DNA of 64,000 nucleotides from Variovorax soli NBRC 106424 (GTDB lineage: Bacteria; Pseudomonadota; Gammaproteobacteria; Burkholderiales; Burkholderiaceae_C), in assembly GCF_001591385.1 (NCBI RefSeq), contig NZ_BCUU01000006.1, forward strand, positions 30,894 through 94,893, given 5' to 3'. A program made the position numbers and the translations under genes. Below, piece after piece: positions 42,233 to 62,387 of this stretch. The notes below the pieces were generated by a model, which was given only the letters and a program-made list of their open reading frames with translations, made no database searches and had not been told where the DNA came from. Every line of letters begins with the position of its first letter. The first letter of the stretch is position 1.

Positions 42233-42256
42233 CGGTGTTGTCTCCTGCGCATTGAC

Positions 42257-42272
42257 GGCAAGCGGCGTGCCT
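42257..42272 (-). promoter_or_regulatory. Sigma-54 promoter for the 41966-42232 gene
   Basis: Reverse-strand AGGCACGCCGCTTGCC: matches TGGCACRNNNNTTGCW at all but the two end positions. Predicted start of transcription about 14 bases before the ATG. Confidence 0.75.
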
Positions 42273-42299
42273 GTGCGGCGCCGTCACGTGGGTGCGCTC

Positions 42300-42315
42300 G
42301 GGCATATCGCTTGCC
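42300..42315 (+). promoter_or_regulatory. Sigma-54 promoter of the GT4-GT9-GT9 operon
   Basis: GGGCATATCGCTTGCC, with GG and GC at the required spacing. Predicted start about 31 bases before the glycosyltransferase ATG. Confidence 0.75.
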
Positions 42316-42356
42316 CCGGCAAGCGTGTCCAACCCAGAAAGCCGGAGCCGCCCGCC

Positions 42357-43673
42357 ATGACCACCAGGGAACCACTGCTGCGAATTGCCTTGATCAGCGA
42401 GCACGCTTCGCCGCTCGCCAAACCCGGCGGCGTCGATGCCGGCGGCCAGAACGTCTACGTGGCGCAGGTGGCCTGCGCGCTGGCGGCCCTCGGCCATCAC
42501 GTGGACGTGTACACGCGCTGCGACAGCATCCGGCTGTCGGCCTGCGCCTTCCTGCGCTCGCGCGTGCGCGTCATGCATGTGGATGCCGGGCCCGCCTGCT
42601 TCGTGCCCAAGGAACAGCTGCTCTCGCACATGCCGGCGTTTGCGCGAGGCATGCGCAATGCGATGGAGCATGCGGGCCGCTACGACATCGTCCACGCCAA
42701 CTTCTTCATGTCCGGATGGGTCGGCATGGCGCTGCAGCGCGCCTGCGCGCTGCCGCTGGCCGTCACCTTCCATGCACTGGGCCTGGTGCGCCAGCAGCAC
42801 CAGGGAAGCGCCGATGGGTTTCCGCAGGCGCGCATCGGCATCGAGCGGCGCCTGGTGCACCGGGCGCAGCGGGTGATTGCCGAATGCCCGCAGGAGCGCG
42901 AGGACTTGCTGCGGCTCTACGGCGCAGACGCCGCGCGCATCAGCACCGTGCCCTGCGGCGTGGACCTGGCGCAGTTCGGCCCGCGCAACCGCGTGGCGGC
43001 GCGGCGCCGCCTGGGCTTGCCGCAGGACGAATTCATCGTCCTGCAGCTGGGGCGGCTGGTGCCGCGCAAGGGCGTGGAGCATGTGGTGCGCGCCATGGCG
43101 CTGCTCGATGCACGCATGCCCGCGCGCCTGCTGGTGGTGGGCGGCGAATCGCGCCAGCCCGACGACGCGCGCACGCCCGAGCTGGGCCGGCTGCGCGCCA
43201 TCGCGCAGCAATGCGGCGCGGCGCAGCGCGTGGTGTTCGTGGGCCAGCGCGACCGCCAGGAGCTGGCCGACTACTACGCCGCGGCCGACGTCTTCGCCAC
43301 CACGCCGGCCTACGAGCCCTTCGGCATCACGCCGCTGGAGGCCATGGCCTGCGGCACGCCGGTGGTGGGCAGCGCCGTGGGCGGCATCCAGCACACGGTG
43401 GTGGATGGCGTGACCGGGTTCCTCGTGCCCCCGGCCGATCCGGCGGCGCTGGCCGAGCGCTTCGCGCGGCTGCATGCCAACGCGGCGCTGGGCGAAGCCA
43501 TGGGGCGTGCCGGCATGGCGCGCGTGCGTTCGCTCTTCACCTGGGACCAGGTGGCGCAGGGGCTGGTCAAGGCCTACCGTGAAGCCATCGCATCGTCGTG
43601 CGAGCAGCACGCCGGCGCCAGGCCGCAACTGCAGCGCACCGCACGCACGCTGTCGCTGGGCGCCGTGGCGTGA
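42357..43673 (+). CDS. Family 4 glycosyltransferase (MshA/sucrose-phosphate-synthase-like)
   Basis: A 438-residue cytoplasmic GT-B retaining glycosyltransferase. N-terminal acceptor loop KPGGVDAGGQNVYVAQVACAL, donor-side QLGRLVPRKGVEHVVRA, and the nucleotide-sugar signature AYEPFGITPLEAMACGTPVVG with catalytic-type Glu. Donor and acceptor unknown. ATG 42357 has GGAG upstream; the earlier in-frame ATG at 42216 would overlap the sigma-54 element. First gene of a three-gene operon; its TGA overlaps the next GTG. Confidence 0.92.
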   Translation: MTTREPLLRIALISEHASPLAKPGGVDAGGQNVYVAQVACALAALGHHVDVYTRCDSIRLSACAFLRSRVRVMHVDAGPACFVPKEQLLSHMPAFARGMRNAMEHAGRYDIVHANFFMSGWVGMALQRACALPLAVTFHALGLVRQQHQGSADGFPQARIGIERRLVHRAQRVIAECPQEREDLLRLYGADAARISTVPCGVDLAQFGPRNRVAARRRLGLPQDEFIVLQLGRLVPRKGVEHVVRAMALLDARMPARLLVVGGESRQPDDARTPELGRLRAIAQQCGAAQRVVFVGQRDRQELADYYAAADVFATTPAYEPFGITPLEAMACGTPVVGSAVGGIQHTVVDGVTGFLVPPADPAALAERFARLHANAALGEAMGRAGMARVRSLFTWDQVAQGLVKAYREAIASSCEQHAGARPQLQRTARTLSLGAVA

Positions 43674-44782
43674 CGGCCATTCAGGCGCCCTGGGCCGGCG
43701 TGCGCAAGCTGCTCGCGGTACGGCTCGACAGCCTCGGCGACGTGCTGATGACCACTCCCGCGCTGGCCGCCCTGAGGGAGGGCCTGCCCACGGCGCAGCT
43801 GCACCTGCTGACCTCGCCGGCCGGCGCCGCGCTGGCGCCGCACCTGCCCCTGGTGGACGACGTGCTGGCGTGGGAGGCGCCATGGGTCGCGCCGCGAACG
43901 GCGGCGCTGCCGGCCGAGCCGCTCGGCCATGCCGAACTGGCGCTGGTGCAGCAGCTGGCCGCGGCCGGCTACCAGGCGGCGGTGATCTTCACCGTGTGCA
44001 CCCAGAGTGCGCTGCCGGCCGCCCTGCTCTGCCGCCAGGCCGGCATTCCCCTGCGCCTGGCCCATTGCCGCGAGAACCCGTACGGGCTGCTGAGCCATTG
44101 GGTGCGGGACGATGACCGCCCCGGCGACGGCATGCGCCACGAAGTGCGCCGCCAGCTCGACCTGGTGGCCTCGGCAGGTTTTGCCGCAACTGCAACCGCA
44201 AGCGCCGCGCCCTTGCGCCTGGCGCTGCACGAGGCCGACCGCCATGCCGTGCGCCAGCGCCTCGCGGCTGCCGGCTTGCCGGCGCAGCAGCCCTACTTCG
44301 TGGTCCACCCGGGCGCCGCAGCGGCATCGCGCCGCTACCCGCCGGAAAGTTTTGCCGCCGCGGCGCGCGCCCTGGCCGCGGACACCGGCCATGCCGCCGT
44401 CTTGGCCGGCAGCGCGGACGATGCCCCTCAGCTCGATGCATTGCACCAGGCCATGGCAGGCGCCGCACTGCGAATGGACCCGCTGCCACTGGGCCAGCTC
44501 GCGGCGCTCATCGAAGGCGCCTGCGTCCTCCTGTGCAACAACAGCGCGCCGGCACACATTGCCGCGGCGGTCGGCGCGCCGGTGGTCGTGCTGTATGCGC
44601 TGACCAACCCGCAGCACACGCCCTGGGCGGCGCGCAGCCGGGTCCTGAGCCACCCGGTACCCTGCAGCGGCTGCCTGAAAAGCGTCTGCCCCGAGGGCCA
44701 CCACGCCTGCCTGCGCGGCGTGCCGCCCCAGGGCGTGGCAGCTGCCGCCCGGGCCCTGATGCACGGAGCGCAAGCCAGGTGA
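43670..44782 (+). CDS. Family 9 glycosyltransferase (heptosyltransferase-like)
   Basis: A 370-residue GT9 enzyme: KLLAVRLDSLGDVLMTTPALAALR at the N-terminus, VVHPGAAAASRRYPPESF in the middle, and CNNSAPAHIAAAVGAPVVVLYALT toward the end. GT9 members use ADP-heptose, which fits the heptose genes downstream. GTG start overlapping the previous stop (GTGA). Ends with a Cys-rich segment (CSGCLKSVCPEGHHACL), as in some heptosyltransferase-like proteins. Confidence 0.92.
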   Translation: MTAIQAPWAGVRKLLAVRLDSLGDVLMTTPALAALREGLPTAQLHLLTSPAGAALAPHLPLVDDVLAWEAPWVAPRTAALPAEPLGHAELALVQQLAAAGYQAAVIFTVCTQSALPAALLCRQAGIPLRLAHCRENPYGLLSHWVRDDDRPGDGMRHEVRRQLDLVASAGFAATATASAAPLRLALHEADRHAVRQRLAAAGLPAQQPYFVVHPGAAAASRRYPPESFAAAARALAADTGHAAVLAGSADDAPQLDALHQAMAGAALRMDPLPLGQLAALIEGACVLLCNNSAPAHIAAAVGAPVVVLYALTNPQHTPWAARSRVLSHPVPCSGCLKSVCPEGHHACLRGVPPQGVAAAARALMHGAQAR

Positions 44783-45909
44783 GCAATCCTGCGCCGATCC
44801 TCCAGGAGCCCGTTCGGCGCATCGGCGTGCTGCGCGCGCTGATGCTGGGCGACATGCTATGCGCCCTGCCCACGCTGCGGGCGCTGCATGCGCGCTGGCC
44901 GCAGGCCGAGCTGGTGCTCATCGGCCTGCCGTGGGCCGCCGAATGGGCGTCGCGCCAGGCCTTCGTTCATCGCTTCATCGCCTTGCCCGGCTGGCCGGGC
45001 CTGCCCGAGCAGGCCGTCCGCACCGAACGGCTGCCGCAATTTCTGCAGCACATGCAGCACGAGCACTTCGACCTGCTGGTGCAGCTGCACGGCAGCGGCG
45101 ACGTGGTCAACCCGCTGGTGGGCGCCTGCGGCGCGCGTGCCACCGCCGGATTCGCGGAACCGGGCAGCTACTGCGCGGACCCGCCACTGCACCGGCCCTG
45201 GCCCCGGCAGGGCCACGAGATCCTGCGCCTGCTGGCGCTGACGGACCACCTGGGCATCGCCCGCCAGGGCCTGCACCTCGAGTGGCCGATCCACGCATCG
45301 GACCGCAGCCGCCTCGCTGCGCTCGTGCCCCCAGCGCGCCCCCTGGCCTGCCTGCATCCAGGCGCCCGGTTCGCATCGCGGCGCTGGCCGGCGCGGCACT
45401 TCGCGGCCGTGGGCGACCGGCTCGCGGGCGAAGGCTTTCAGGTGGTGCTGAGCGGCAGCGCCGCCGAGGCGCCGCTGGCGGCGGAAGTGGCGGGCCACAT
45501 GCGCCACCCGGCCATCGACCTCACGGGCCGCACCGACCTGTGGACCCTGGGCGCGCTGGTGGAGGCCGCGGCCGTCGTCGTGACCAACGACACCGGCATG
45601 TCGCATGTGGCCGTCGCCATCGGCACGCCCAGCGTCGTGATCAGTTGCGGATCCGACGCGGCGCGATGGGCCCCGCTGGACGCGAGGCGCCACCCCTGCT
45701 TCTGGCACGACCTGCCGTGCCGGCCGTGCATGCACGAGCACTGTCCGCTGCCGCGCCACGAATGCGCGCAGGCCGTGCTGCCGCAAAGCGTTGCCGCCGC
45801 AGCGCTTGCGCAAGCCGCATGGACTGCCTTGCCTGCTTCGCCGTCGCCACCCTTGCCGCAAGCTTTGCCGCATGACCCGGCGGCAGCCGCGTTCATCCAG
45901 CCTCGATGA
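44779..45909 (+). CDS. Family 9 glycosyltransferase (heptosyltransferase-like), second copy
   Basis: A 376-residue GT9 paralogue: IGVLRALMLGDMLCALPTLRALHARWP, CLHPGARFASRRWPARHFA, TGRTDLWTLGALVEAAAVVVTNDTGMSHVAVAIGTPSVV and a Cys-rich end (CRPCMHEHCPLPRHECA). GTG start again overlaps the upstream stop. The 3' end overlaps the convergent PA2169-like gene by 17 bases. Confidence 0.92.
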   Translation: MSNPAPILQEPVRRIGVLRALMLGDMLCALPTLRALHARWPQAELVLIGLPWAAEWASRQAFVHRFIALPGWPGLPEQAVRTERLPQFLQHMQHEHFDLLVQLHGSGDVVNPLVGACGARATAGFAEPGSYCADPPLHRPWPRQGHEILRLLALTDHLGIARQGLHLEWPIHASDRSRLAALVPPARPLACLHPGARFASRRWPARHFAAVGDRLAGEGFQVVLSGSAAEAPLAAEVAGHMRHPAIDLTGRTDLWTLGALVEAAAVVVTNDTGMSHVAVAIGTPSVVISCGSDAARWAPLDARRHPCFWHDLPCRPCMHEHCPLPRHECAQAVLPQSVAAAALAQAAWTALPASPSPPLPQALPHDPAAAAFIQPR

Positions 45910-46348
45910 CCATCCTGGCCCGCAACGCCTGCAACTGCTCGCGCGTGTGCCGCGCCAGCTCGTAATGCTTGAGCACCACCTGGCGGATCGAATCCGGCAA
46001 TGAACCGCTCAGCACGCCGCGATAGCGCATCAGCGTCACTTCCTCGACCCGCTCGCACGCGTCCAGCAACACACCGTCACCATTGACCCCCAGCGTGCTG
46101 CGAATCGCCATCCAGCTGCGATGCGCCGCACCCAGCACCGAGCCCCGGTGCTCGGGCCTGCCGCCGAGGTCGCGCAGGATGCCTTCCAGCTCCGCGGCCT
46201 CCTCTCGGCAGGCCTGCGCGCGATAGGCGAAGAGCTCGCGCAGCTCCACGGTCTGCGCATGCCGGGCACAGTCGCTGTACTCGCCTTCGCCGTCCACGCA
46301 CGCTTGCACCAGCAGCCGGAGCGCATTGATTGTTTCGTCCTCTTGCAT
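45893..46348 (-). CDS. PA2169-like four-helix-bundle protein (DUF2383)
   Basis: A 151-residue all-helical protein: INALRLLVQACVDGEGEYSDC, RELFAYRAQACREEAAELEGIL, GAAHRSWMAIRSTLG, VLKHYELARHTREQL. This is the PA2169/DUF2383 ferritin-like bundle family, often stress-induced; the Glu/His residues could hold a metal. It has its own sigma-54 element (46395-46410), divergent from the copper-protein gene. Confidence 0.85.
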   Translation of the reverse strand: MQEDETINALRLLVQACVDGEGEYSDCARHAQTVELRELFAYRAQACREEAAELEGILRDLGGRPEHRGSVLGAAHRSWMAIRSTLGVNGDGVLLDACERVEEVTLMRYRGVLSGSLPDSIRQVVLKHYELARHTREQLQALRARMVIEAG

Positions 46349-46394: not shown

Positions 46395-46410
46395 GGCAAG
46401 CGCAGTGCCG
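46395..46410 (-). promoter_or_regulatory. Sigma-54 promoter of the PA2169-like gene
   Basis: Reverse-strand CGGCACTGCGCTTGCC: GGCAC and TTGC in register. Predicted start 36 bases before the ATG. Confidence 0.75.
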
Positions 46411-46426
46411 GTCGTCCGCTGCAACC

Positions 46427-46442
46427 GGGCATGCGGATTGCC
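46427..46442 (+). promoter_or_regulatory. Sigma-54 promoter of the Csp-like gene
   Basis: GGGCATGCGGATTGCC. It covers the ATG at 46431, so that longer start cannot be used; predicted start of transcription near 46453, just before the ATG at 46455. Confidence 0.7.
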
Positions 46443-46454: not shown

Positions 46455-46796
46455 ATGGAAGCCATGCAGCTGAACCAAGACGTTTCACAATGTGTAGCCG
46501 TCTGCCATGCCTGTGCGGCTGCCTGCAATGCGTGCGCGGCTGCCTGCCTGGCGGCGCCCGACGTGGAGGCCATGCGTGCCTGCGTGGCCATCACCATCGA
46601 CTGCGCCCAGCTGTGCGAGCTCACGGCCGGTATGCTGGCCCGCTCGAGCGCTGTCGCGGGCGTGACCTGCCTGGCCTGCAGCAGCGCCTGCACCACCTGC
46701 GCGCAGGAGTGCGTGCGCCATTCGAATGCGCACTGCCAGCAATGCGCCGCGGTGTGCAGGAAGTGCGCCCAGCTGTGTGCACAGATGGCCAGCTGA
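46455..46796 (+). CDS. Cys-rich four-helix copper-binding protein (Csp/DUF326-like)
   Basis: A 113-residue protein with 19 Cys spaced along amphipathic helices (CVAVCHACAAACNACAAAC, CLACSSACTTCAQEC, CQQCAAVCRKCAQLC). This is the layout of copper storage proteins, whose Cys line the inside of a four-helix bundle and bind many Cu(I). No signal peptide, so a cytosolic Csp3-like store is likely. Start 46455 is set by the sigma-54 element; 46464, after GGAAG, is an alternative. Confidence 0.9.
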   Translation: MEAMQLNQDVSQCVAVCHACAAACNACAAACLAAPDVEAMRACVAITIDCAQLCELTAGMLARSSAVAGVTCLACSSACTTCAQECVRHSNAHCQQCAAVCRKCAQLCAQMAS

Positions 46797-46814: not shown

Positions 46815-47432
46815 TCACCCTTGCGGCCACAGCGTGTCATCGACCAGGGCGCACAGCGCGTGGCCGATGAAGATGTGCGCCTCCTGGATGCGCGCCGTGA
46901 TCTCCCCCGGCACCCGGATCGCCAGCCGGCTGGCCTCGGCCACCGGGCCGCCCTGGCTTCCGGTGAGCGCAATGGAGCAGATGCCCAGCTCGTTGGCGGC
47001 GGCCACGGCCCGCAGCACGTTGGGCGAGCGGCCCGATGTCGAGATGGCCACCAGGCAGTCGCCGCGGCGCCCGATGCCCCGCACCTGGCGCGCGAAGACC
47101 TCTGCGAAGCCGTAGTCGTTGCCGATGCAGGTCAAGGCCGAGGTGTCGACGCTCAGCGCCAGCGCAGCCATGGGCGGACGCTCGCGCTGGAAGCGGCCGG
47201 TGAGTTCGGCCGCGATGTGCTGGCTGTCCGCCGCCGAGCCGCCGTTGCCGCACAACATGAGCTTGCCGCCGGCGCGCAGGCTCTGCGCGACCAGGTGGGC
47301 GGCATGCTCCACCACCGGCGCCAGGCTGCCCAGGCGATCGAACAGGCTTCGGTGCTCGTCCAGCGCCTGCAGGAAGGCCGTGTGTGCACGGCTGCCGGAA
47401 CCGGTACGGCGAATCAGCAGCTCATCAGGCAT
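46815..47432 (-). CDS. gmhA: Sedoheptulose-7-phosphate isomerase
   Basis: A 205-residue SIS-domain protein with the GmhA signature MLCGNGGSAADSQHIAAEL, TGRFQRERPPMAALALS and ISTSGRSPNVLRA. First step of ADP-heptose synthesis: sedoheptulose 7-phosphate to D-glycero-D-manno-heptose 7-phosphate. Overlaps the hldA 3' end by eight bases and is cotranscribed with it. Confidence 0.93.
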   Translation of the reverse strand: MPDELLIRRTGSGSRAHTAFLQALDEHRSLFDRLGSLAPVVEHAAHLVAQSLRAGGKLMLCGNGGSAADSQHIAAELTGRFQRERPPMAALALSVDTSALTCIGNDYGFAEVFARQVRGIGRRGDCLVAISTSGRSPNVLRAVAAANELGICSIALTGSQGGPVAEASRLAIRVPGEITARIQEAHIFIGHALCALVDDTLWPQG

Positions 47433-48342
47433 GCATGGCCTCCTCCAGTTCGGCGCGGCTGAGCGACGCAGTGCCCGACTTGCCCACCACCACGCCGGCC
47501 GCCGCGGCGGCCCAGCCCATGGCTTCTTCCACGCTGTTGCCCTCCAGCATCCGGTAGGCCAGCGTCGCCAGAACCGTGTCGCCCGCGCCGCTGACGTCGT
47601 ACACCTCGCGCACCAGCGCCGGAAGGTGGCGCACCCGCTCGGGCGAGAAAAGGCTCATGCCTTCCTCCCCGCGCGTGACCAGCAGGTGGTCCACCTGCAG
47701 GCGCTTGCGCAGCTGGCCGGCCTTGGCGCACATGCCCTGCTCGCTGGCAAAGCCGCCGCAGCAGCGCGTGAACTCGCTCAGGTTGGGCTTGAGCACGGTG
47801 GCGCCGGCGTAGCGCTGCCAGTTGGGGCCCTTCGGGTCCACCAGCACCGGCAGCCCCCGCTCGCGCGCGCGCTGCACCAGCGGGCGGCATTCGTGCAGTG
47901 CGCCCTTGGCATAGTCGGACAGCACCAGCATGTCGTGCCGCGGCAGCAGCGCCTCGAAGTGCTCCATCAGCAGCGTGAGCAGCCAGGGTGGCGGCAGCTC
48001 CTCGATGTCGGCGCGCAGCAGCTGCTGCCGGCGGCTCGTGAAGCGGATCTTGCGGGTGGTGCGGTAGCCCTCGGCGGCCACGCAGGCCACGGCCACGCCG
48101 TGCTGCGCCATCAGCCCGCCCAGGCGCACGGCCGCGTCGTCCACACCCAGCGGCGCCAGCAGCGTGACGCTGGCACCCAGGGCCGCAAGATTGACGGCAA
48201 CATTGGCCGCACCGCCGGCGGCAAAACGCTCGCCGGTCAGCCGCAGCACCGGCACCGGCGCTTCGGGCGAGATGCGGTCCACCGCACCGTCCCAGTAGTG
48301 GTCGAGCATCGCATCGCCGACAACGAGAACACGTGAATTCAT
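47425..48342 (-). CDS. hldA: D-glycero-beta-D-manno-heptose-7-phosphate kinase
   Basis: A 305-residue PfkB/ribokinase-type kinase corresponding to the N-terminal half of HldE (RfaE domain I): VLVVGDAMLDHYWDG, PEAPVPVLRL, GGAANVAVNLAALG, VLSDYAKG, DVSGAGDTVLATLAYR with the catalytic Asp. Makes heptose-1,7-bisphosphate. ATG 48342 begins the conserved fold and lies at about +3 of the predicted sigma-54 transcript; no RBS is seen. Confidence 0.93.
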   Translation of the reverse strand: MNSRVLVVGDAMLDHYWDGAVDRISPEAPVPVLRLTGERFAAGGAANVAVNLAALGASVTLLAPLGVDDAAVRLGGLMAQHGVAVACVAAEGYRTTRKIRFTSRRQQLLRADIEELPPPWLLTLLMEHFEALLPRHDMLVLSDYAKGALHECRPLVQRARERGLPVLVDPKGPNWQRYAGATVLKPNLSEFTRCCGGFASEQGMCAKAGQLRKRLQVDHLLVTRGEEGMSLFSPERVRHLPALVREVYDVSGAGDTVLATLAYRMLEGNSVEEAMGWAAAAAGVVVGKSGTASLSRAELEEAMHA

Positions 48343-48354: not shown

Positions 48355-48370
48355 GGCAATCAGCAGACCC
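48355..48370 (-). promoter_or_regulatory. Possible sigma-54 promoter of hldA-gmhA
   Basis: Reverse-strand GGGTCTGCTGATTGCC: good -12, weaker -24 (GGTCT). Weakest of the set. Confidence 0.5.
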
Positions 48371-48387: not shown

Positions 48388-48403
48388 AGGAACGTGGCTT
48401 GCC
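48388..48403 (+). promoter_or_regulatory. Sigma-54 promoter of the Gly-rich protein gene
   Basis: AGGAACGTGGCTTGCC, same -24 form (GGAAC) as the hldC promoter. Predicted start 62 bases before the ATG. Confidence 0.65.
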
Positions 48404-48475: not shown

Positions 48476-49429
48476 ATGGCGCAGCGAGACCAACGGCACA
48501 GACATGAAGGCGGCGGATACGGCGGGGGCGGGGGCGGGGGCGGACGCTCCCACCCGCACGGCCAGGCCTACCGGCACGGGGACGATGCGCGCTACGGCGC
48601 CTGGGGACCGCAAGACGATGAGGACAGCCCCTACTACGCCGGCCGCGGCGACGAAGGCCGCCGGACCGGACCCGACGAATGGGCCGAACGCGGCTATGGC
48701 GGCCAGCGCGGCGGCGGCTACGAAGGGGGCCGCAGCGGCCTGCGGACGGGTCACTTCGGCGCCGGCGGGAGCTACGCAGGCAGCGGCCAGGGCGGCTATG
48801 GCAGCAACGCCGGACCGCACGCCAGCCCGGGCGGCGGCGGGCACGGCAGCTGGGGGGACGACGAAGGCCTGGGCGAAGGCGAATACACGGAGCGCGGCTA
48901 CCAGGGCCGCCAGGGCGGCTCGGACTGGTACAGCCGGGGTGGCCGCGGCGCCTATGGCAGCAGCAGGCCCGGCGGCTTTGCCGGCGGCACGGGCTACGGC
49001 GGCAGCTACGGCGAGGACCCGCGCAACTGGGGCGCCCGCGATCAGGGCGGCAGTGATTACGGCGGCAGCGGCAGCGTCCGGCGCGGCTTCGGATCGGGCA
49101 GCCGCGAACACCAGCACCACCACGACCCCGACTACCAGCAATGGCGCGATGAACAGATGAGGTCGCTCGACGAAGACTACCGGTCGTGGCGCGAAGAACG
49201 CTATCGCAAGTTCTCCGACGAGTTCGATGCCTGGCGCAAGAACCGGCCCAGCCAGTCCGCGGGCGGCCAAGGCCAGGGCGAAGGCACCGGCTCGAGCTCG
49301 AGTTCGACTTCCTCGTCCGGCTCGGGGGCCAGCGCCGATTCCGGCACCGGCACGAGCACCGGCGGCAGCACGACCTTCGGCACCGGCGCGGGTGCGGGCT
49401 CGAACCTCGGTTCCAGCAAGAAGAGCTGA
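48476..49429 (+). CDS. Gly-rich low-complexity protein with conserved C-terminal charged motif
   Basis: A 317-residue protein. Most of it is Gly/Ser/Tyr/Arg repeats (GYGG, GSYAG, RGGYG) with acidic patches. Residues about 222-260 are different: DPDYQQWRDEQMRSLDEDY and a following WREERYRKFSDEFDAWR, a short aromatic/charged helix seen in stress-type Gly-rich proteins of Burkholderiales. A Ser/Gly tail follows. No signal peptide. GAAAGGA precedes ATG 48476. Could form condensates or bind nucleic acid; that is conjecture. Confidence 0.8.
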   Translation: MAQRDQRHRHEGGGYGGGGGGGGRSHPHGQAYRHGDDARYGAWGPQDDEDSPYYAGRGDEGRRTGPDEWAERGYGGQRGGGYEGGRSGLRTGHFGAGGSYAGSGQGGYGSNAGPHASPGGGGHGSWGDDEGLGEGEYTERGYQGRQGGSDWYSRGGRGAYGSSRPGGFAGGTGYGGSYGEDPRNWGARDQGGSDYGGSGSVRRGFGSGSREHQHHHDPDYQQWRDEQMRSLDEDYRSWREERYRKFSDEFDAWRKNRPSQSAGGQGQGEGTGSSSSSTSSSGSGASADSGTGTSTGGSTTFGTGAGAGSNLGSSKKS

Positions 49430-49492: not shown

Positions 49493-50452
49493 TCAGCCGC
49501 ACACTTCGCGCACCAGCCGCTCCCAGTCGTGCGTGAAGCGCTCGATGTTGAAGCGCTCCAGCGCCGTCTTCCTGCCGGCCTCGCCCAGCTGGCGCGCGGT
49601 GGCCTTGTGGTCCAGCAGGTGGCGCATGCCGTCGATCAGGCGCTCGGGCCGGGTATCGATCAGGCCGTTCTCGCCGTCGCGGATCACCGTCGACAGCTCG
49701 GTGGTGGCCAGGCCCACCACCGGCGCGCCAATCATCATCGCCTCGATGATCGCCAGGCCCAGGCTGGTGTAGCGCGCCGGGTGGAAGAAGAAGCGGTGCG
49801 CCGCCATGCAGGCTGGCAGCTGGTCCTGCGGCACCTCGCCGGCGCCGCCCAGCGCCAGGCTGTTCATGCCCACCAGCTCCATGGGCACCGCGGCCGCGGC
49901 TTGTTGGTACAGGTCCAGCCCCACGCGCCGCCCGCGCGTGCCGATGTCATTGATCACCACCAGCCCGCGCGCAATGTCCCCGTGGTACCAGGACTGGGTC
50001 ACCAGCTTCACCCCGTGCTCGATCACCCGCACCGGACAGCGGCCGCTGTCCCACATGAGCGCGTTGAACGGCGTCACGTGCACCAGCACGCACGACGGAT
50101 CGTCCACCCAGTGGCGGCATTCGGTGGGATGCGTGAGCGGCGGATCGTGCTCGATGTAGATGCACGGCAGCCGCTGCTGCGCCGGGCTCAGTAGCTCATG
50201 CCGCTCCGCCTCCCATGCGCTGCGCGACTGGTAGAGCACCAGGTCGAATTCCATGTCGCGGATGTCCTCCACCCGCGCCTCGTGCACGTTCCAGCCCCAG
50301 GGCAGCACGCCGCTGCGGCCGCTGTGGCCGGGCGAGCGTTCCTCGTCGGTCACCAGGTAGAGCTCGTGCCGCATCTGGCTCAGGTAGTACAGGTAGTTGC
50401 CGTGCACATGCCAGGTCAGGATGCGGCGCGGCCGGTGGAAGATGCCGGTCAT
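49493..50452 (-). CDS. Family 4 glycosyltransferase
   Basis: A 319-residue GT-B glycosyltransferase: RILTWHVHGNYLYYLSQM at the N-terminus, IYIEHDPPLTHPTE in the middle, FFHPARYTSLGLAIIEAMMIGAPVVGLAT as the donor signature. Last of three tightly overlapping genes (ATGA with the GT2 gene), so it belongs to the carbamoyltransferase operon. Confidence 0.88.
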   Translation of the reverse strand: MTGIFHRPRRILTWHVHGNYLYYLSQMRHELYLVTDEERSPGHSGRSGVLPWGWNVHEARVEDIRDMEFDLVLYQSRSAWEAERHELLSPAQQRLPCIYIEHDPPLTHPTECRHWVDDPSCVLVHVTPFNALMWDSGRCPVRVIEHGVKLVTQSWYHGDIARGLVVINDIGTRGRRVGLDLYQQAAAAVPMELVGMNSLALGGAGEVPQDQLPACMAAHRFFFHPARYTSLGLAIIEAMMIGAPVVGLATTELSTVIRDGENGLIDTRPERLIDGMRHLLDHKATARQLGEAGRKTALERFNIERFTHDWERLVREVCG

Positions 50453-54877: not shown

Positions 54878-54893
54878 CGGCACGCATATTGCG
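54878..54893 (+). promoter_or_regulatory. Sigma-54 promoter of rpoN2 (autoregulation)
   Basis: CGGCACGCATATTGCG: GGCACG-N4-TTGC in register, 14 of 16 consensus positions. Predicted start 29 bases before the GTG. Confidence 0.75.
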
Positions 54894-54932: not shown

Positions 54933-56309
54933 GTGACGGCCACCTTGTCCCTGGGCACCGCGCAGCGGCAGACGCAAACGATCTCGCCCCGGCTGCAGCA
55001 GGCGGTGCGCCTTTTGCAGATGTCCTCGCTCGAGTTCTCGGCCATGGTGGAAGACCAGTTGGGCCAGAACCCCTTTTTGGAAGAGGACCCCGACGCCGAG
55101 GCGAGATCGGCCCCCGCGCAAGCCGAGACCACACCCGTCGAAGACCGCGAACTCTGGCGCATGGAGCGCTCCGGCGCATCCCAGCGCGCCGACGACAGCC
55201 AGGTCAGCGCCATGGAACTGATGCCCGAGCGCAGTTCGCTGCAGGACCACCTGCATGGGCAGATCAGCGTCATGAACCTGAGCGAGCGCGACCGCGTGCT
55301 GGCCGCCATCGTGATCGAGGCGCTCGACCCGGACGGCTACCTGCGCATCGCCCTGGACGAACTGGCCGTCTTCGACGGGCTGCTGCCCGCGCCCGAGCCG
55401 GTGGAACTGCGCATCGCCCTCAAGCGCGTGCAGGCGCTGGACCCGCCCGGCGTGGGCGCACGCAGCGTCTGCGAATGCCTGCAGCTGCAGCTTCCGGCCA
55501 TCGAATGCCCCGAGACACGCGCGCTGGCCACAGCCATCGTGCAGGAGCACCTGTCGCTGCTGGCCCAGCGCAACATCGCGGCGCTGGCGCGCGCGCTGCA
55601 TGCCGACCCCTTCCGGGTCGACGCGGCATGCAAGCGCCTTCGCATGCTGGACCCGCGGCCGGGCTGGCGCTTCGAATCGTCGCTGCCGCCCTACGTGGTG
55701 CCCGACGTGCTCACCCAGCGCATCCGGGGGCAATGGCGCGCGACGCTCAATCCGGCGGTGATGCCGCGGGTGCGCTTCAACCAGGTCTACGCCGACCTGT
55801 TCCGGCGCCATCGCAACCGGGCCGACGCCGAGATGGCCAGCAGCCTGCAGGAAGCGCGCTGGACGGTGCGCAACGTGGAGCAGCGCTTTTCCACCATCCT
55901 CGACGTGGCCGATGCCATCGTGCGGCGGCAGCAGCACTTCCTGGAGTTCGGCGCCATGGCGATGAAGCCGATGGGCCTGCGCGAGATCGCGCAGGAGCTG
56001 GGCGTGCACGAATCCACCGTCTCGCGGGTGACGAGCAACAAGTACATCGCCACGCCGGCCGGCGTGTTCGAGCTCAAGTACTTCTTCTCGCGCGCGCTGG
56101 TCAGCCGCAGCGGCAGCGCCTGCTCGGGCACGGCCATCCGCGGCCTGGTCAAGGAAATGATCGACGCCGAGCCCAGCGGCCAGCCGCTGTCGGACGCCGA
56201 GATCGCACGGCGCCTGTCGGCCCAGGGGCTGACCGTGGCGCGCCGCACCGTCACCAAGTACCGCCAGGCCCTGCACATCGATGCCATCGAGCGCAGGCGC
56301 GCGGGTTGA
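54933..56309 (+). CDS. rpoN: RNA polymerase sigma-54 factor, probable second copy
   Basis: A 458-residue sigma-54. Gln-rich region I (TISPRLQQAVRLLQMSSLEF, DQLGQNPFLEED), short acidic region II, core-binding region III, HTH (LREIAQELGVHESTVSRVTSNKYI) and the RpoN box ARRTVTKYRQ near the C-terminus. It is not in the usual lptB-rpoN-hpf setting but within the glycan/heptose cluster, so I read it as a dedicated paralogue (RpoN2). GTG start after GGAG. A -24/-12 element upstream suggests it drives itself. Confidence 0.94.
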   Translation: MTATLSLGTAQRQTQTISPRLQQAVRLLQMSSLEFSAMVEDQLGQNPFLEEDPDAEARSAPAQAETTPVEDRELWRMERSGASQRADDSQVSAMELMPERSSLQDHLHGQISVMNLSERDRVLAAIVIEALDPDGYLRIALDELAVFDGLLPAPEPVELRIALKRVQALDPPGVGARSVCECLQLQLPAIECPETRALATAIVQEHLSLLAQRNIAALARALHADPFRVDAACKRLRMLDPRPGWRFESSLPPYVVPDVLTQRIRGQWRATLNPAVMPRVRFNQVYADLFRRHRNRADAEMASSLQEARWTVRNVEQRFSTILDVADAIVRRQQHFLEFGAMAMKPMGLREIAQELGVHESTVSRVTSNKYIATPAGVFELKYFFSRALVSRSGSACSGTAIRGLVKEMIDAEPSGQPLSDAEIARRLSAQGLTVARRTVTKYRQALHIDAIERRRAG

Positions 56310-56631: not shown

Positions 56632-59600
56632 TCAGGCGTCGTCGCCCTTGCCGTTGCCGTTGCCGTTGCTCAGGTAGGTCTCGATGACATCCCGCAGGCG
56701 CGGCATGTCGACCGGCTTGGTCATGTGCAGGTCGAAGCCGGCCTCCATCGAGGCGCGCACGTCCTGCTCGTGCCCCCAGCCGGTGATGGCGACCAGCAGC
56801 ATGTTCTTGCCCCAGGCGTGGGCCCGGATGCGCCGGGCCACCTCGTGGCCGCTGAGCTCGGGCATGCCGATGTCCACCAGCATCACCTGCGGCCGGTGGG
56901 ATTCGGCCAGCGCCAGCGCGCTCGCCCCGTCGTCCGCCTTGACGGTGTTGAAGCCTTGCAGCACCAGCCACTGGGCCACGGCCCAGGCCGCATCCTGGTT
57001 GTCGTCCGCCAGCAGGATCAAGGCGCCCGAGGCGCGCTGCGCCGGCATGGGCGCCTGCGCGCCCGCCGACTTGTCCAGCGGCACCTGGCGCAGTGCCGGC
57101 ATGCCGAAGCTGAAGCGGCTGCCCTGGCCGGGGCCGGCCGAATCGGCGCGGATCCAGCCGTCGTGCATCTGCAGGATGCTGCGCGACAGCGCCAGGCCGA
57201 TGCCCAGCCCGCCGCCCGACCGCTCCCTGGCGTCCTGGCCCTGTGTGAACATGTCGAACAGCTGCTCGATCTCCTCGCGCTTCATGCCGATGCCGTTGTC
57301 GCTCACCTCCACCACCGCTTCGCCGTCGCGCTGCATGGCCTCCAGCGTGATGGCCCCGCTCCTGGGCGTGTACTTGGCGGCGTTGGCCAGCAGGTTGCTC
57401 ACCACCTGCACCAGGCGGTTGGGGTCGGCGTCGATCTCGATGTCCAGCGCAGGCAGGCGCACTTCCAGCGTGTGGCCCGAGGCCTCGATGATGGGCCGGG
57501 TGGACTGGATCGCGCCTTCGATGATGCCGATCAGGCTGGTCGGGCGCTTCTGCAGCGACAGGCGGCCCAGCCGCAGGCGCGAGATGTCGAGCATGTCGTC
57601 CAGCAGCGCCGAAATCGCGGCCGTCTGGCGGCGGATCACCTCGGCGGCCTCGCCGTTCACGCTGGCGCCATCCACGTCCAGCACCTGCGCCGCTGCGGCA
57701 ATGGAGGCCAGCGGGTTGCGCAGCTCGTGCGACAGCACGGCCAGGAAGCGGTCCTTGGCGGCGTCAGCCGCCTCCAGCGCATCGCGCGCCTCGCGCTGGT
57801 CTTCCAGGGCATGGGTGAGCTCGACCTGGCTCTGCTGCAAGGCCTCCTGCGCGTTGCGCGCGGCGCTCTGGTCGCGCAGGATCTTCACGAAGCCCTGCGC
57901 ATGGCCCTGCGCGTCGCGCATCAGCATCATGGCGCCGCTGGCCCAGAAGCGGCTGCCGTCCTTGCGCTGGTGGAAGCGGTCGTCCGAGGCGCGGCCCTGC
58001 TCCAGGGAACGCTCCGCTTCGCGTTCGGGAATGCCGGCAGCGCGGTCTTCCTCGGTGAAGATCATGTCGGCCGGATGGCCCAGCACCTCGGCCTCGGCAT
58101 AGCCCAGCAGCGCCTGCGCACCGTTGTTCCAGACCGTGATGTTGCGCTCCAGGTCGGTGGAGAAGATCGCGAACTCGCGCGCGTTCTCCAGGATCATCTT
58201 CAGCTGCTCGCGGCTGTCGCGCAGCGCATCCTCGATGCGCTTGGTGTTGCTGATGTCGCGCACGATGGCCGTGCCCGCAATGGTCTCACCCGCTTCGTCG
58301 CGAATGGCCGACACCGTGACCGACACATGGATCTCGTCACCGTCCTTGCGCCGCCGCACGGTCTCGTAGTTCTCGACCGGCCGCGACACGAGCAGCCTGG
58401 AGACGAGCAGGTCCTGCTCCTTGGTGTCCGGGCCGTGCAGCATCGACAGCGGCTGGCCGATGGCCTCCTCGGCCGTGTAGCCGAACATGCGCTCGGCGCC
58501 GCCGTTCCAGCTGAGGATGGCGTTGTCCAGCGAAAAACTGATGATGGCGTCGTTCGACGCCGTAACCACCGCCGACAGCCACAGCCGCACTTCCTCGGCC
58601 TGCTTGCGCTCGGTGATGTTGACGAAGGACAGCACCACCCCGGCGATGCGGTCCTCGATGGTGCGGTAGGGCAGCAGGCGCGCCAGGTGCCAGCTGCCGT
58701 CGGCCTGCCCCACCTCGCGCTCGATGGGCACCAGGCGGTCGAGCACGCGCTGCGCGTCGGCGCCCATCTCCGGATAGTGCAGCTGGGTGGTGAGGTCGGT
58801 CAGCGGCCGGCCCACGTCGGTGGGAATGAGGTTGAACAGCTGCACCGCCGAGGGCGTGTAGCGGGTGATGCGCAGCTCGCGGTCGAGGAACACGGTGGCG
58901 ATGGCCGTCGCGTCCATGAGGTTGTGCATGTCGCTGTTGGCATGGCCCAGCTCGTCGACCTTGCTCTTGAGCTCGTGGTTGACGGTGGTGAGCTCCTCGT
59001 TGATGGACTGCAGCTCCTCCCGGCTGGTCTCCAGCTCCTCGGTGGCCGAGCGCAGCTCCTCGTTCATGGCCTGCAGCTCCTCGTTGCTGGCCTTGAGTTC
59101 CTCGGTGGAAGCCTCGTACTGCTCGACGGTGTCGCGCAGGTGGGCCTTCAGGCGCTCGAGCTCGCGGTCGAGCTGGCGGGCCACGGGGTCGGACTCGGCG
59201 CGCATGGCCGGGCTGTTGGCGGCGTCGCCGTCGGGCGACTGGGTCTGGATGACCACCAGGTACATGTCGGTGCCGATCTCGTTGACCGGCGTCACGCGCA
59301 TCGAGACCATGGCCTGCTCCCCGTGGAGCTCGACCGGCACCGGCGGCACGTCGGCCGGCGCCTTGCTCTGCCCGGCCTGGTAGAGCGCGGCGCGCAGCTC
59401 GATGCGCAGGCTCGGGTTCACCGCGCGCAGCAGGTTGCGGCTGGGCTCGCCGCCGCCGTACTGCAGGAACCGGCCGGCGCTGGCCGAGATGTGCACCACC
59501 TCGTATTCGCTGTCGACCAGGATGGACGGCGGCGCCAGGTGCTCCAGCAGGCGCAGGTGGACCTCGCCCCAGGACGACTGCCTGCCTTCCACCGGCCGGC

Positions 59601-61251
59601 CGCTGCGCGACTGCGCGGAGGCCGGGCCCGCAAAGGCGGAGCCGGCGATGACGGGGCCGCTGCGCGCGGTCTGCTGGGCCTCCAGCGCAAGCGCCAGCGT
59701 GCCGGGCCCCGAGGGCACCGGCAGCCCCACGCGCGGCGTGGGCCGGTAGCCGTAGATGCGGTGCTTCTTGTCCAGCACGTTGAACAGCTGGCTGCCGTCG
59801 TCCACCGACTCGGACGAGCCGAGGAACAGGCGCCCCGAGGGCTGCAGCGCGAAATGGAAGATCTCGAAGACCCGCGCCTGCGCCTCCACGTTGAGGTAGA
59901 TGAGCAGGTTGCGGCAGCTGATCAGGTCCAGCCGCGAGAAGGGCGAATCCTTGAGCACGTCGTGCGTGGCAAACAGCACCATCTCGCGCAGTTCGCGCCG
60001 CACCCGGTAGCCCGCGTGCTCCTTCATGAAGAAGCGGCGCAGCCGCTCTTCCGACACGTCGGCCTCGATGGCCATGGGGTAGAGGCCGTCGCGCGCGGTC
60101 TGGATGGCGTCTTCGTCCAGGTCGGTGGCAAAGATCTGGATCAGCGGCGGCGCATCCAGCGTGCGCGCCTGCTCGCTCAGCAGCATCGCGATGGAATAGG
60201 CCTCTTCGCCCGTGGCGCAGGCCGACACCCACACACGCACCGCGTCGTTGGGCCCCTTGTTGGCGAACACGCCCGGAATGTGGCGCTCCAGCGCCGCAAA
60301 GCATTCGGCATCGCGGAAGAAGTTGGTGACGCTGATCAGCAGGTCCTGCAGCAGCGCGCCGGCCTCGCCGGGCCGGGTGCGCAGGCAATTCAGGTAGTCG
60401 TGCAGGTTCTCCACGCCATTGACCTGCATGCGCCGGCCGATGCGCCGCAGGATGGTGGCGCGCTTGTAGTAGGCGAAGTCGCGGCCGGTGCGCGTGCGCA
60501 GGAAGGTGAGCACGTCGCGCAGCGCCGCCTCGTCGTTGCCGCCCTGCGTGCCGGTGCCCGCGCCGCGGCCTGCGGCCCGGCGGGGCTCCTTCTCGGGCGG
60601 CAGGCGCAGGTTGTGCTCGAGCTGGAAGTACTCGCTCAGCCGCGGCCCGATGTCTTCCACCGGCAGCACCCAGTCCACCATGCCGGTGGCAATGGCGGCG
60701 CGCGGCGCGGCGCCCTGCGCGGTCTGGGCCGGGTCCTGGGCCACGGTCAGGCCGCCGCGCTCCTTGATGCGCTTGATGCCCACCATGCCGTCGCTTTCCC
60801 AGCCGCCCAGCACCACGCCCGCGGCATGCTGGCCATGGCTGTCGGCCAGGGTGCGGAAGAACTGGTCGATGAGCAGGATGCCGCCGTTCTCGGGCGCCGG
60901 GAAGCCCGGTTGCAGGTGCCCGTCGAGTGCACGCACGCCACGGCCGGCGGCCGCCATGTACACATGGTTGCGGCGGATGCGATGCGCCGTGTCGGACAGC
61001 AGCACCACCGGCAGCGCGGTGCTGTCCTTCAGTTGCTGGATGGAAGCGGCCTCGTCCTCGGTCGGAATGTCGAGCACCGCGACGAAAGCCAGGCCCGAGT
61101 GCTCGGGCACGCGCGACAGCAGCGTGCGCAGCGAGTCGATCGAACCCGAAGCACCGCCAAAGGCCACCACAGGCACTCCACCGTCGAGCTGGAGACCCTG
61201 GGCAGGTTGTTGTTTTGATTCCTGCCGGCCTTCGCCTTCTCGATCGCCCAT
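56632..61251 (-). CDS. CheB/CheR-PAS hybrid histidine kinase
   Basis: A 1539-residue multidomain sensor. Order: CheB-like domain (about 28-205), CheR methyltransferase (about 225-490; SVTNFFRDAECF, WVSACATGEEAYSIAMLL), long coiled S-helix (EELKASNEELQAMNEEL), three PAS domains, HisKA with phospho-His near residue 1173 (LSHELRNPLASIA), HATPase (SDNGIGM, GGGLGIGLALS) and a C-terminal receiver (MLVDIGMPEL). In the CheB-like part the catalytic His position appears as Asp (AVLDIP), so its esterase is probably inactive. It follows the true CheB gene by 30 bases. Confidence 0.94.
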   Translation of the reverse strand: MGDREGEGRQESKQQPAQGLQLDGGVPVVAFGGASGSIDSLRTLLSRVPEHSGLAFVAVLDIPTEDEAASIQQLKDSTALPVVLLSDTAHRIRRNHVYMAAAGRGVRALDGHLQPGFPAPENGGILLIDQFFRTLADSHGQHAAGVVLGGWESDGMVGIKRIKERGGLTVAQDPAQTAQGAAPRAAIATGMVDWVLPVEDIGPRLSEYFQLEHNLRLPPEKEPRRAAGRGAGTGTQGGNDEAALRDVLTFLRTRTGRDFAYYKRATILRRIGRRMQVNGVENLHDYLNCLRTRPGEAGALLQDLLISVTNFFRDAECFAALERHIPGVFANKGPNDAVRVWVSACATGEEAYSIAMLLSEQARTLDAPPLIQIFATDLDEDAIQTARDGLYPMAIEADVSEERLRRFFMKEHAGYRVRRELREMVLFATHDVLKDSPFSRLDLISCRNLLIYLNVEAQARVFEIFHFALQPSGRLFLGSSESVDDGSQLFNVLDKKHRIYGYRPTPRVGLPVPSGPGTLALALEAQQTARSGPVIAGSAFAGPASAQSRSGRPVEGRQSSWGEVHLRLLEHLAPPSILVDSEYEVVHISASAGRFLQYGGGEPSRNLLRAVNPSLRIELRAALYQAGQSKAPADVPPVPVELHGEQAMVSMRVTPVNEIGTDMYLVVIQTQSPDGDAANSPAMRAESDPVARQLDRELERLKAHLRDTVEQYEASTEELKASNEELQAMNEELRSATEELETSREELQSINEELTTVNHELKSKVDELGHANSDMHNLMDATAIATVFLDRELRITRYTPSAVQLFNLIPTDVGRPLTDLTTQLHYPEMGADAQRVLDRLVPIEREVGQADGSWHLARLLPYRTIEDRIAGVVLSFVNITERKQAEEVRLWLSAVVTASNDAIISFSLDNAILSWNGGAERMFGYTAEEAIGQPLSMLHGPDTKEQDLLVSRLLVSRPVENYETVRRRKDGDEIHVSVTVSAIRDEAGETIAGTAIVRDISNTKRIEDALRDSREQLKMILENAREFAIFSTDLERNITVWNNGAQALLGYAEAEVLGHPADMIFTEEDRAAGIPEREAERSLEQGRASDDRFHQRKDGSRFWASGAMMLMRDAQGHAQGFVKILRDQSAARNAQEALQQSQVELTHALEDQREARDALEAADAAKDRFLAVLSHELRNPLASIAAAAQVLDVDGASVNGEAAEVIRRQTAAISALLDDMLDISRLRLGRLSLQKRPTSLIGIIEGAIQSTRPIIEASGHTLEVRLPALDIEIDADPNRLVQVVSNLLANAAKYTPRSGAITLEAMQRDGEAVVEVSDNGIGMKREEIEQLFDMFTQGQDARERSGGGLGIGLALSRSILQMHDGWIRADSAGPGQGSRFSFGMPALRQVPLDKSAGAQAPMPAQRASGALILLADDNQDAAWAVAQWLVLQGFNTVKADDGASALALAESHRPQVMLVDIGMPELSGHEVARRIRAHAWGKNMLLVAITGWGHEQDVRASMEAGFDLHMTKPVDMPRLRDVIETYLSNGNGNGKGDDA

Positions 61252-61281
61252 CGTTTCTCCAATCGCGGTACAGCGCTGGAA

Positions 61282-62286
61282 TTATGCGCCGCCACCCTCG
61301 CCCCTTCCCTCGATGATTCTTCTGAGCGAAAGGGCTTGTTCGCGTGCCTCGTCGGCCCTGCGCTCGCCCACCTGCGCCTCGTTCAGGCGGCCGCTGGCGC
61401 GCGAGACGAGTGCCAGCCGGCGAAGGAGCATTTCCTTCTCCTGCAGCGCGCGCACGCCGCTGCGCAGCACCTGCTCGGTTGCTTCGCCCTGCTGGCTGCT
61501 CAAGGTCTGCGCGGAGAACGCATGGCCGATGTGGCACCGAAAGCGCGGCGGACTGGAGTCGTTGATCTCGAACAGCGCCCCGCCGCGATCGGGGCATGTG
61601 AGTTCGGCCGGCGATCCGATTTCCTGGACATGCGACATGACGTTGACTCCCTCGTTGATGCGAACCTCGTGCCACAGGCGGCGCGGGGGCTTGTGCGCCG
61701 CGCCGGCCGGGCGTGCCCTTCTCACCAGCGCCGCCAGCGTGGACCCCATGTCCTCGATGGAGACGCAGGCGTCCGGGTCCACCGCCGCCATGGCCGCCCG
61801 CGGCATGTCGGGCTGCGCGGCCGTGTCCGGATCCTGGACCACCGCCATGCCGCCGCATTCCTTGACGGCCTGCAGCCCGGCGGCGCCGTCGTCGAGCTGG
61901 CCCGTGAGAATCACCCCGATGGCCCGCGGCCCCCAGTTCAGCGCGGCGGAGCGGAACAAGGGGTCGATGGCGGGCCTGGCGTGGTTCTCCTTGGGGCCCC
62001 GCGTCAGCCGCAACTGCCTGGCCTCCAGCAGGAGGTGATGGTCGGGGGGCGCCACGTAAATGGTGCCGGCCACCGGCGGCTCGCCGTCCTGCGCATGAAC
62101 CACGTTCCACTGGCAGCGCATGCGCAGCAGCTCGGGCAGCAGGCTCGGGTGGGCGCCCACATGCAGCACGATCAGCACGGCGGCGTCCAGGTCGGCGGGC
62201 AGGTCCTGCGTCAGCTGCAGCAAGGCAGGCACACCGCCTGCCGAGGTGCCGATGACGATGACGCGCGACGGCGGGCGCTTGCTCAT
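61282..62286 (-). CDS. CheB-type protein-glutamate methylesterase without receiver
   Basis: A 334-residue protein with a CheB catalytic domain first: VIGTSAGG with Ser15, VLHVGAHPSLLPELL with His43, LTGQLDDGAAG with Asp134. After about residue 190, a C-terminal part has ELTCPDRGGALFEI and FRCHIGHAFSAQTL, a putative metal-binding CxxH segment typical of these stand-alone CheB proteins. No receiver domain, and no chemoreceptors or CheA nearby. Probably works with the CheR-containing kinase. Start at about +2 of its predicted sigma-54 transcript. Confidence 0.92.
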   Translation of the reverse strand: MSKRPPSRVIVIGTSAGGVPALLQLTQDLPADLDAAVLIVLHVGAHPSLLPELLRMRCQWNVVHAQDGEPPVAGTIYVAPPDHHLLLEARQLRLTRGPKENHARPAIDPLFRSAALNWGPRAIGVILTGQLDDGAAGLQAVKECGGMAVVQDPDTAAQPDMPRAAMAAVDPDACVSIEDMGSTLAALVRRARPAGAAHKPPRRLWHEVRINEGVNVMSHVQEIGSPAELTCPDRGGALFEINDSSPPRFRCHIGHAFSAQTLSSQQGEATEQVLRSGVRALQEKEMLLRRLALVSRASGRLNEAQVGERRADEAREQALSLRRIIEGRGEGGGA

Positions 62287-62297
62287 GCAGGTGCGGG

Positions 62298-62313
62298 GGC
62301 AAGCGGTGTTCCC
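62298..62313 (-). promoter_or_regulatory. Sigma-54 promoter of the cheB-kinase operon
   Basis: Reverse-strand GGGAACACCGCTTGCC. The predicted transcript would begin one base before the ATG. Confidence 0.6.
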
Positions 62314-62387
62314 GTTGGTTCCATGCGGACATGCCCCCGCCGGGCCGATCAGCGTTCAAGATGCAACTTGCACTGGAGCCCAAGCAC

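Follow-up and report, generated by a model that had tools for sequence, protein, structure and literature searches.

The 64,000-nucleotide stretch of Variovorax soli NBRC 106424 analysed here (NZ_BCUU01000006.1, positions 30,894 to 94,893; hereinafter the window, numbered from its first letter) occupies the right end of a 94.9-kb contig in a genome of 5.6 Mb and contains, starting at 41966, a gene cluster whose intergenic gaps hold promoter-like elements of the sigma-54 type. The cluster encodes five glycosyltransferases (two of GT9 and two of GT4 type and one GT2), a carbamoyltransferase, GmhA-, HldA-, GmhB- and HldC-type proteins, DUF2383 and DUF326-like proteins, and a set of regulators comprising a sigma-54 factor (RpoN2), a CheB-CheR-PAS-kinase-REC hybrid, CheB and an NtrC-type activator, the gene of the latter (T in Table 1) being cut because the contig stops at the right edge of the window. 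All four enzyme types of the ADP-heptose pathway (isomerase, kinase, phosphatase and adenylyltransferase) are represented, each under its NCBIfam cut-off (GmhA 191.5 bits vs 209.5, HldA 341.3 vs 345, HldC 168.7 vs 181.5, and GmhB 116.3 vs 149.6), so that their exact substrates can be proposed only as putative. The rpoN2 product contains domains PF00309, PF04963 and PF04552, matches TIGR02395 with 413 bits over a cut-off of 277 and carries the RpoN box ARRTVTKYR; a second rpoN gene of the same genome lies on contig C145. At all loci genes were called with our own codon-usage script, which favours ATG and Shine-Dalgarno-like starts.

A preliminary description of this DNA had listed eleven elements with GG and GC separated by 10 bases, each directed toward a start codon, and all of them were found within 1 nt of the places and on the strands given there, as were the four gaps with divergent pairs, whose GG-to-GG distances are 30 (42271/42301), 19 (46409/46428), 20 (48369/48389) and 28 nt (53433/53461). 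For scoring we used a hand-weighted matrix for GG-N10-GC sites; the positions preceding GG and following GC do not contribute to the score and thus may be tested without bias. Ten of the eleven elements, all within 20.5 kb, score at least 13. Such sites are far fewer elsewhere: 19 control stretches from this genome have on average 0.68 of them per 20 kb and never more than 2, and the remaining 43.5 kb of the window has a single one. The pattern used in the preliminary description matches 14 times in the 20.5-kb cluster (the eleven listed elements and three places in coding sequence) and on average 4.2 times (range 1–7) in the same 19 controls. The remaining element, 48356–48369(-), has a background-level score of 9.5 (12.7 matches scoring at least 9 are found per control stretch), but is nevertheless located 27 nt ahead of the HldA-type ATG at 48342, a spacing shared by part of the element set. 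The supposed agreement with the sigma-54 consensus holds for the GG/GC spacing of 10 bp, the CAC/TTGC context and the position facing a gene; it does not extend to a full fit to TGGCACRNNNNTTGCW for any of the eleven, since, relative to TGGCACRN4TTGCW, T before GG is absent in all and position -11 is occupied by C in ten and by G in one.

Comparison with relatives was based on 299 genomes of the family, 29 of them with the carbamoyltransferase, and the flanks of 26 relatives were compared after exclusion of G293 (a 3.5-kb contig) and G118 (46% match). Genes B, C, D, J, K, L and M co-occur in most relatives in rearranged order, often together with rpoN2, T, Q, R, E, G, H or N; five genomes (G127, G028, G154, G236, and G197) retain little of the gene set in the 27–40 kb viewed. 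The search for conserved elements in homologous clusters, proposed in the preliminary description, found them in the 26 relatives ahead of the same genes and of many stress-type genes. With a score of at least 12, 231 intergenic elements face a gene in these relatives plus the cluster (the relatives' intergenic DNA amounting to 113 kb) against two in 56.5 kb of intergenic control DNA. Among the best 80 of 577 matches in named genomes, relatives belong to Rhizobacter, Roseateles, Rubrivivax, Pseudorhodoferax, Azohydromonas, Cupriavidus, Burkholderia, Caballeronia, Ralstonia, Bordetella and Noviherbaspirillum, and some lie outside Proteobacteria.

By the canonical sigma-54 consensus, position -11 should be A or T. 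In the 26 relatives, elements preceding genes other than rpoN2 have C at this position in 120 of 155 cases (T in 24, G in 7, and A in 4), and T precedes GG in nine of the 155. Outside the RpoN2 clade considered below, i.e., in 16 named Burkholderiales loci of genomes having no rpoN match above 383 bits, C is found in 3 of 55 elements (T 27, G 17, and A 8), compared with 33 of 37 in ten named loci of genomes carrying the clade. Pooling gives 153/192 vs 3/55, but three pooled loci (L164, L177, and L181) apparently repeat genomes from the set of 26, and for this reason the unpooled count was relied on; L184 (Azoarcus; two C of four) and L219 (Solimonas) were assigned to neither group. Counted by genome, with rpoN2 promoters included, C holds the majority in 22 of the 27 genomes with the cluster, the window being one of them, as against 1 of the 16 outside-clade loci. 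The element preceding rpoN2 itself, present in 24 of 30 loci examined, is different: G in 14, A in 7, T in 3 and never C. A prediction about -11 stated in advance was then addressed in 20 kb (17 kb in one case) around rpoN2 of 15 carriers lacking the carbamoyltransferase, where C occupies this position in 53 of 58 regulon elements (T in the other five) and in none of 13 rpoN2 promoters, all having A or G (nine had been seen before and four were new). Around rpoN2 in five Burkholderia-type genomes of the sister clade (other regions of genomes already used), C occurs in 1 of 28 elements (G 13, T 12, and A 2), the four rpoN2 promoters found there having A or T. Thus the base at -11 differs between RpoN2 lineages as well as between regulon and rpoN2 promoters of the same genomes. 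This point was missed in the preliminary description: the elements constitute a diverged class with C at -11 in genomes possessing this RpoN clade, and the rpoN2 promoter is of another type.

RpoN2, defined by at least 390 bits against the protein of the cluster (next best 348), is encoded in 58 of the 299 genomes and in 27 of the 29 carbamoyltransferase carriers, the exceptions being G043 (80% complete, no rpoN match) and G118 with its weak carbamoyltransferase match. A FastTree phylogeny of 81 RpoN sequences, covering part of the second rpoN copies, separates canonical RpoN1 (26 sequences, support 1.0), the present RpoN2 clade (42, 0.95) and a Burkholderia/Ralstonia/Bordetella RpoN2 group (11, 0.97), with one Azoarcus and one Solimonas copy outside the groups. 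RpoN2 and RpoN1 differ in residues including 348, 368, 378, 404 and 441, to none of which we ascribe the reading of -11. Genomes G183, G078, G119 and G282 have three or four rpoN matches each, two of them of RpoN2 type. Activator T is matched in all 58 RpoN2 carriers (57 at 513 bits or more and one at 324; mostly 63–75% identity) and in 2 of 20 non-carriers chosen by us mostly for size (464 and 305 bits). This co-inheritance, observed directly, makes T the likely cognate activator of RpoN2; in 13 full-length relatives its C-terminus looks by eye like a Fis-type helix-turn-helix (HTH). The RpoN2-less genus-mate G215 retains a T-like activator of 57% identity (C11:604850–606019). The suggestion of one regulon under the sigma-54 factor and NtrC-type activator of the cluster thus gains backing from the elements in relatives, from co-occurrence of T and RpoN2, from RpoN2 in nearly all carbamoyltransferase carriers and from the element ahead of rpoN2; the predicted regulon, resting on comparison across relatives, may be regarded as well supported.

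Distinct targets in the relatives number 163 (42 core cluster genes, 113 scanned and 8 dropped for junction or length). In the first 25 of 56 families they include glycosyltransferases, PRC-barrel (8), Transgly_assoc (6), SDR (5), DUF2383 (5), hemerythrin (5), OmpA-like (4), DUF4142 (3), CBS (3) and Mn-catalase (2) proteins. Near rpoN2 in the 15 carriers (52 scanned), KGG stress repeats, BON, a mechanosensitive channel, MgtC and GT20 (the trehalose-phosphate synthase family) were met, and in the sister clade (28 scanned), DJ-1/PfpI, BON and Catalase_C.

Table 1. Genes of the cluster and sigma-54-type elements in the window (distance is counted from GG to the start codon).
Feature	Position	Strand	Score	Base at -11	Distance, nt	Remarks
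Gene A	41966..42232	-				88 aa, without family match
Gene B	42357..43673	+				GT4 glycosyltransferase
Gene C	43670..44782	+				GT9 heptosyltransferase family
Gene D	44779..45909	+				GT9 heptosyltransferase family
Gene E	45893..46348	-				DUF2383; PA2169-like in the preliminary description
Gene F	46455..46796	+				Cys-rich, DUF326 slightly under cut-off; Csp-like in the preliminary description
Gene G	46815..47432	-				SIS domain, GmhA-like
Gene H	47425..48342	-				Heptose-7-phosphate kinase type, RfaE domain I, 341.3 bits vs cut-off 345
Gene I	48476..49429	+				Gly-rich, without family match
Gene J	49493..50452	-				Glycosyltransferase group 1 (GT4 type)
Gene K	50449..51420	-				GT2
Gene L	51507..53366	-				O-carbamoyltransferase; relatives TobZ, GdmN, novobiocin enzyme
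Gene M	53524..54141	+				GmhB-type HAD phosphatase
Gene N	54250..54732	+				HldC-type (RfaE domain II) adenylyltransferase
Gene O (rpoN2)	54933..56309	+				Sigma-54 with AID, core-binding and DNA-binding domains
Gene Q	56632..61251	-				CheB-CheR-PAS-HisKA-HATPase-REC hybrid kinase
Gene R	61282..62286	-				CheB methylesterase
Gene S	62331..62666	+				HisKA-like, slightly under cut-off
Gene T	62802..63998	+				NtrC-type activator, REC and sigma-54 AAA+; C-terminus with the DNA-binding part, and anything downstream, lost at contig end
Element before A	42258..42271	-	14.9	C	39	
Element before B	42301..42314	+	14.6	C	56	ATG 42357
Element before E	46396..46409	-	13.9	C	61	
Element before F	46428..46441	+	14.6	C	27	ATG 46455 (chosen by us); predicted leaderless
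Element before H	48356..48369	-	9.5	C	27	Weak; ATG 48342 (chosen by us); predicted leaderless
Element before I	48389..48402	+	13.5	C	87	
Element before L	53420..53433	-	14.9	C	67	
Element before M	53461..53474	+	13.0	C	63	ATGC at -12
Element before N	54167..54180	+	13.5	C	83	
Element before O	54879..54892	+	14.9	G	54	Sole G among the eleven
Element before R	62299..62312	-	13.5	C	26	ATG 62286; predicted leaderless
Possible extra element inside R, facing S	62228..62241	+	12.4			CTGC at -12; uncertain

Apart from the cluster, positions 1–14000 of the window contain few confident genes and, by eye, integrase-like and resolvase-like reading frames, possibly a mobile element. Close to the start of contig C29 of the same genome (L313:1784–3910), a further divergent pair with C at -11 precedes genes for a 146-aa protein (CBS-like by eye) and for a protein of 453 aa, representing another piece of the regulon.

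Orientation and spacing of the elements, both observed directly, bear on their nature. Among 195 intergenic elements scoring at least 13, 77 face a gene where the reverse orientation would not and 7 show the opposite, in accord with the orientation toward start codons described earlier; 98 are situated between genes faced either way and 13 face none. Of 175 start codons, 18 lie 25–28 nt downstream of the first G and none 29–38 nt downstream; in other genomes (71 start codons) six were found at 26–28 nt, one at 22 and none at 29–45. A Shine-Dalgarno-like motif accompanies 2 of 18 starts of the short-spacing class vs 96 of 156 at 42 nt or more, a contrast partly built in because the gene caller rewards such motifs. 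With GG at -25/-24, start codons of the short class fall at +1 to +4, where a sigma-54 transcription start would yield leaderless messages, so that this class, represented in the window by CheB (62286) and, if the chosen ATGs are correct, by HldA (48342) and the Csp-like protein (46455), may serve as an indirect signature of such starts.

Taken together, these data make it probable that the elements are -24/-12 promoters of the dedicated sigma-54 paralog RpoN2, in most targets with C at -11 and without T before GG. Since GGCA-N7-TGCC is a near-palindrome completed by the C at -11, and its matches number 154 in intergenic regions vs 38 in coding sequence, the elements might alternatively be operators of a dimeric transcription factor. 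Yet among 70 one-sided GGCAN7TGCC sites collected without the matrix, 54 are oriented as sigma-54 promoters would be and 4 the opposite way, the inner bases of the two halves being unlike, and start codons 25–28 nt from GG leave no space for a sigma-70 promoter in between; sigma-70-like promoters were indeed not detected in 42200–55000, where shuffled sequences give 0.6. This highly improbable reading is rejected on the basis of element orientation and start-codon spacing. It is also unlikely, though less so, that RpoN2 reads the elements with the help of several activators or a distant regulator rather than T. The search for dyads upstream of 159 elements returned no palindrome among the top 40, and 34 to 211 NtrC-type candidates per genome are seen at first look; T is, however, the sole activator found in the cluster, and is inherited together with RpoN2 at mostly 63–75% identity.

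There is also a rather small chance that the elements are ordinary sigma-54 promoters used by canonical RpoN1, or by both factors, with C at -11 as a mere product of drift in a lineage rich in GC. In favour of this are the canonical core GG-N10-GC, the two or more rpoN matches found in 26 of the 29 carbamoyltransferase carriers, and the elements also borne by related clusters in Cupriavidus and Noviherbaspirillum genomes that show one rpoN match each. Against this, C at -11 follows the RpoN2 clade (53/58 vs 1/28), the rpoN2 promoters of the same genomes have A or G in 13 of 13, and G250 (96% complete) possesses the cluster with RpoN2 as its sole rpoN match. Base composition alone is therefore insufficient, because C at -11 tracks the clade while rpoN2 promoters in the same genomes differ.

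A number of observations weigh against RpoN2-specific promoters served by T. The spacing gap is not absolute: the set scoring at least 12 has 4 of 231 start codons in the 30–39 bins, and the matrix-free set has 2 of 70 within the gap, at 31 and 37 nt. Regulon elements lack C at -11 in 35 of 155 cases (24 with T), five of the 27 cluster genomes show no C majority and one of the 16 outside-clade loci does. The rpoN2 promoter has mostly G (14/24) and hence is not itself canonical, which leaves its use by RpoN1 a supposition by analogy; besides, two of nine elements labelled as rpoN2 promoters in the 26 relatives bear C, both genomes having a second element with A further upstream. Our attempt to compile canonical RpoN1 promoters ahead of P-II genes in the same genomes yielded one weak match in 30 loci; one of these loci, L162, had been misframed. 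No activator site emerged from the dyad search in spite of the apparent DNA-binding HTH in relatives of T, and in none of the 26 relatives was T labelled as a target, although it has its own element in one sister-clade genome (L331). With GG-to-GG distances of only 19–30 nt, two holoenzymes may not fit simultaneously on divergent elements and may exclude each other. The sequences compared share ancestry, hence their elements are not independent. Finally, the whole-genome scan proposed in the preliminary description gave a slight difference (median 6.16 pattern matches per Mb in 58 RpoN2 carriers vs 4.47 in 50 non-carriers that we picked from 241; p 0.016), and the bare pattern, being too blunt, is weakly informative.

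Many of the whole-genome pattern places checked in V. soli lie within coding sequence. Among the 100 listed for this genome, 33 correspond to GGAACCGGCTTTGCC or GGAACTGGCTTTGCC (e.g., C2:71169, C7:47149, and C12:29682), two copies in control stretches being intergenic and facing no gene; likely this is a dispersed repeat family which raises bare pattern counts.

The best reading, in our opinion, is that a dedicated RpoN2–activator pair would run a glycan and stress regulon, the rpoN2 promoter fitting the RpoN1-to-RpoN2 cascade of Ralstonia. In the scheme we infer, by analogy with Ralstonia solanacearum, rpoN2 would be expressed from its own promoter with G, A or T at -11, likely by RpoN1. The RpoN2 holoenzyme would form a closed complex on [ACG]GGCAY-N5-TTGCC, which activator T, likely phosphorylated via the CheB-CheR-PAS hybrid kinase Q, would remodel, and transcription would begin about 25 nt after GG. 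The presumable output is a carbamoylated heptose-based surface glycan along with proteins for envelope, oxidative and osmotic stress. All of this, from binding and the activator to the signal, the product glycan and the physiological role, is prediction.

Several constituents of this scheme have precedents, cited here from excerpts of the respective articles. The sigma-54 consensus is given as TGGCACN5-7TTGCT (PMC12316311). In Cereibacter (Rhodobacter) sphaeroides, the sigma-54 paralogs RpoN1, RpoN2 and RpoN3 each have their own gene set and activator, and position -11 is relevant to distinguishing RpoN1 from RpoN2 promoters (PMC11999139). Promoters of R. sphaeroides are described as differing solely at -11, and some Burkholderiales as possessing two sigma-54 variants (PMC3162934). 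The C. sphaeroides system is, however, alphaproteobacterial and serves nif, flagellar and xrpA sets, whereas ours belongs to a mostly betaproteobacterial clade, with a glycan and stress set, C at -11 and an rpoN2 promoter of another class. Ralstonia solanacearum also has a second rpoN, transcribed from a promoter with the canonical element TGGCACAGCCTTTGCA; mutant analysis showed that its expression requires rpoN1, its role was called enigmatic, and promoters were scanned with the canonical motif (PMC4371752). In our tree, in contrast, the RpoN2 of a Ralstonia sp. (R. solanacearum itself is not among the sequences) falls into a separate group. In a Burkholderia rpoN2 mutant, expression of katE (catalase E) is lost, so a stress gene requires RpoN2 there, but it is a single target, and the excerpt describes no regulon, glycan cluster or promoter class (PMC4745423). 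The second RpoN of Bradyrhizobium is linked with stress adaptation (PMC13207237). Searches of open-licence PMC articles for a carbamoyltransferase–heptosyltransferase–sigma-54 cluster, for rpoN paralogs of Rubrivivax or Roseateles, for RpoN2 or general stress regulons, and for sigma-54 with PRC-barrel, hemerythrin or Mn-catalase gave no title or abstract beginning that describes this regulon, nor is it described in the excerpts of the articles cited above or of PMC9045368 and PMC4603805. Specialised sigma-54 paralogs are already known, and what is new is the recoded -11 promoter class tied to one RpoN2 clade and its likely activator.

The general stress regulons of sigma-B, EcfG and RpoS depend on sigma-70-family factors and, to our knowledge, such responses in bacteria are otherwise run by this family. 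The set predicted here resembles them in its cargo (Mn-catalase, hemerythrin, PRC-barrel, BON, KGG, Transgly_assoc, and the trehalose-phosphate synthase family), but as a proposed sigma-54 regulon it would need an ATP-driven activator. A broader generalization, which we advance tentatively and hold to be somewhat short of evenly balanced, is that Burkholderiales and some neighbours possess a sigma-54 general stress response in which RpoN1 would switch on RpoN2, and RpoN2 together with an NtrC-type activator of its own would turn on a regulon of stress and surface-glycan genes, partly as leaderless messages. The promoters would be recoded before GG and at -11 (C in one RpoN2 clade, G or T in its sister), the base after GC being an insulating letter that co-evolved with RpoN2 lineages.

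Second rpoN genes have been reported in many Burkholderiales, and the present analysis offers for such a gene a predicted gene set, an activator and a one-letter promoter code. Most of this regulon would escape canonical sigma-54 scans that demand A or T at -11. If the proposed interpretation is true, it would add a further case, in another bacterial class, of sigma-54 paralogs separated at -11, and a sigma-54 route would join the general stress responses of bacteria.

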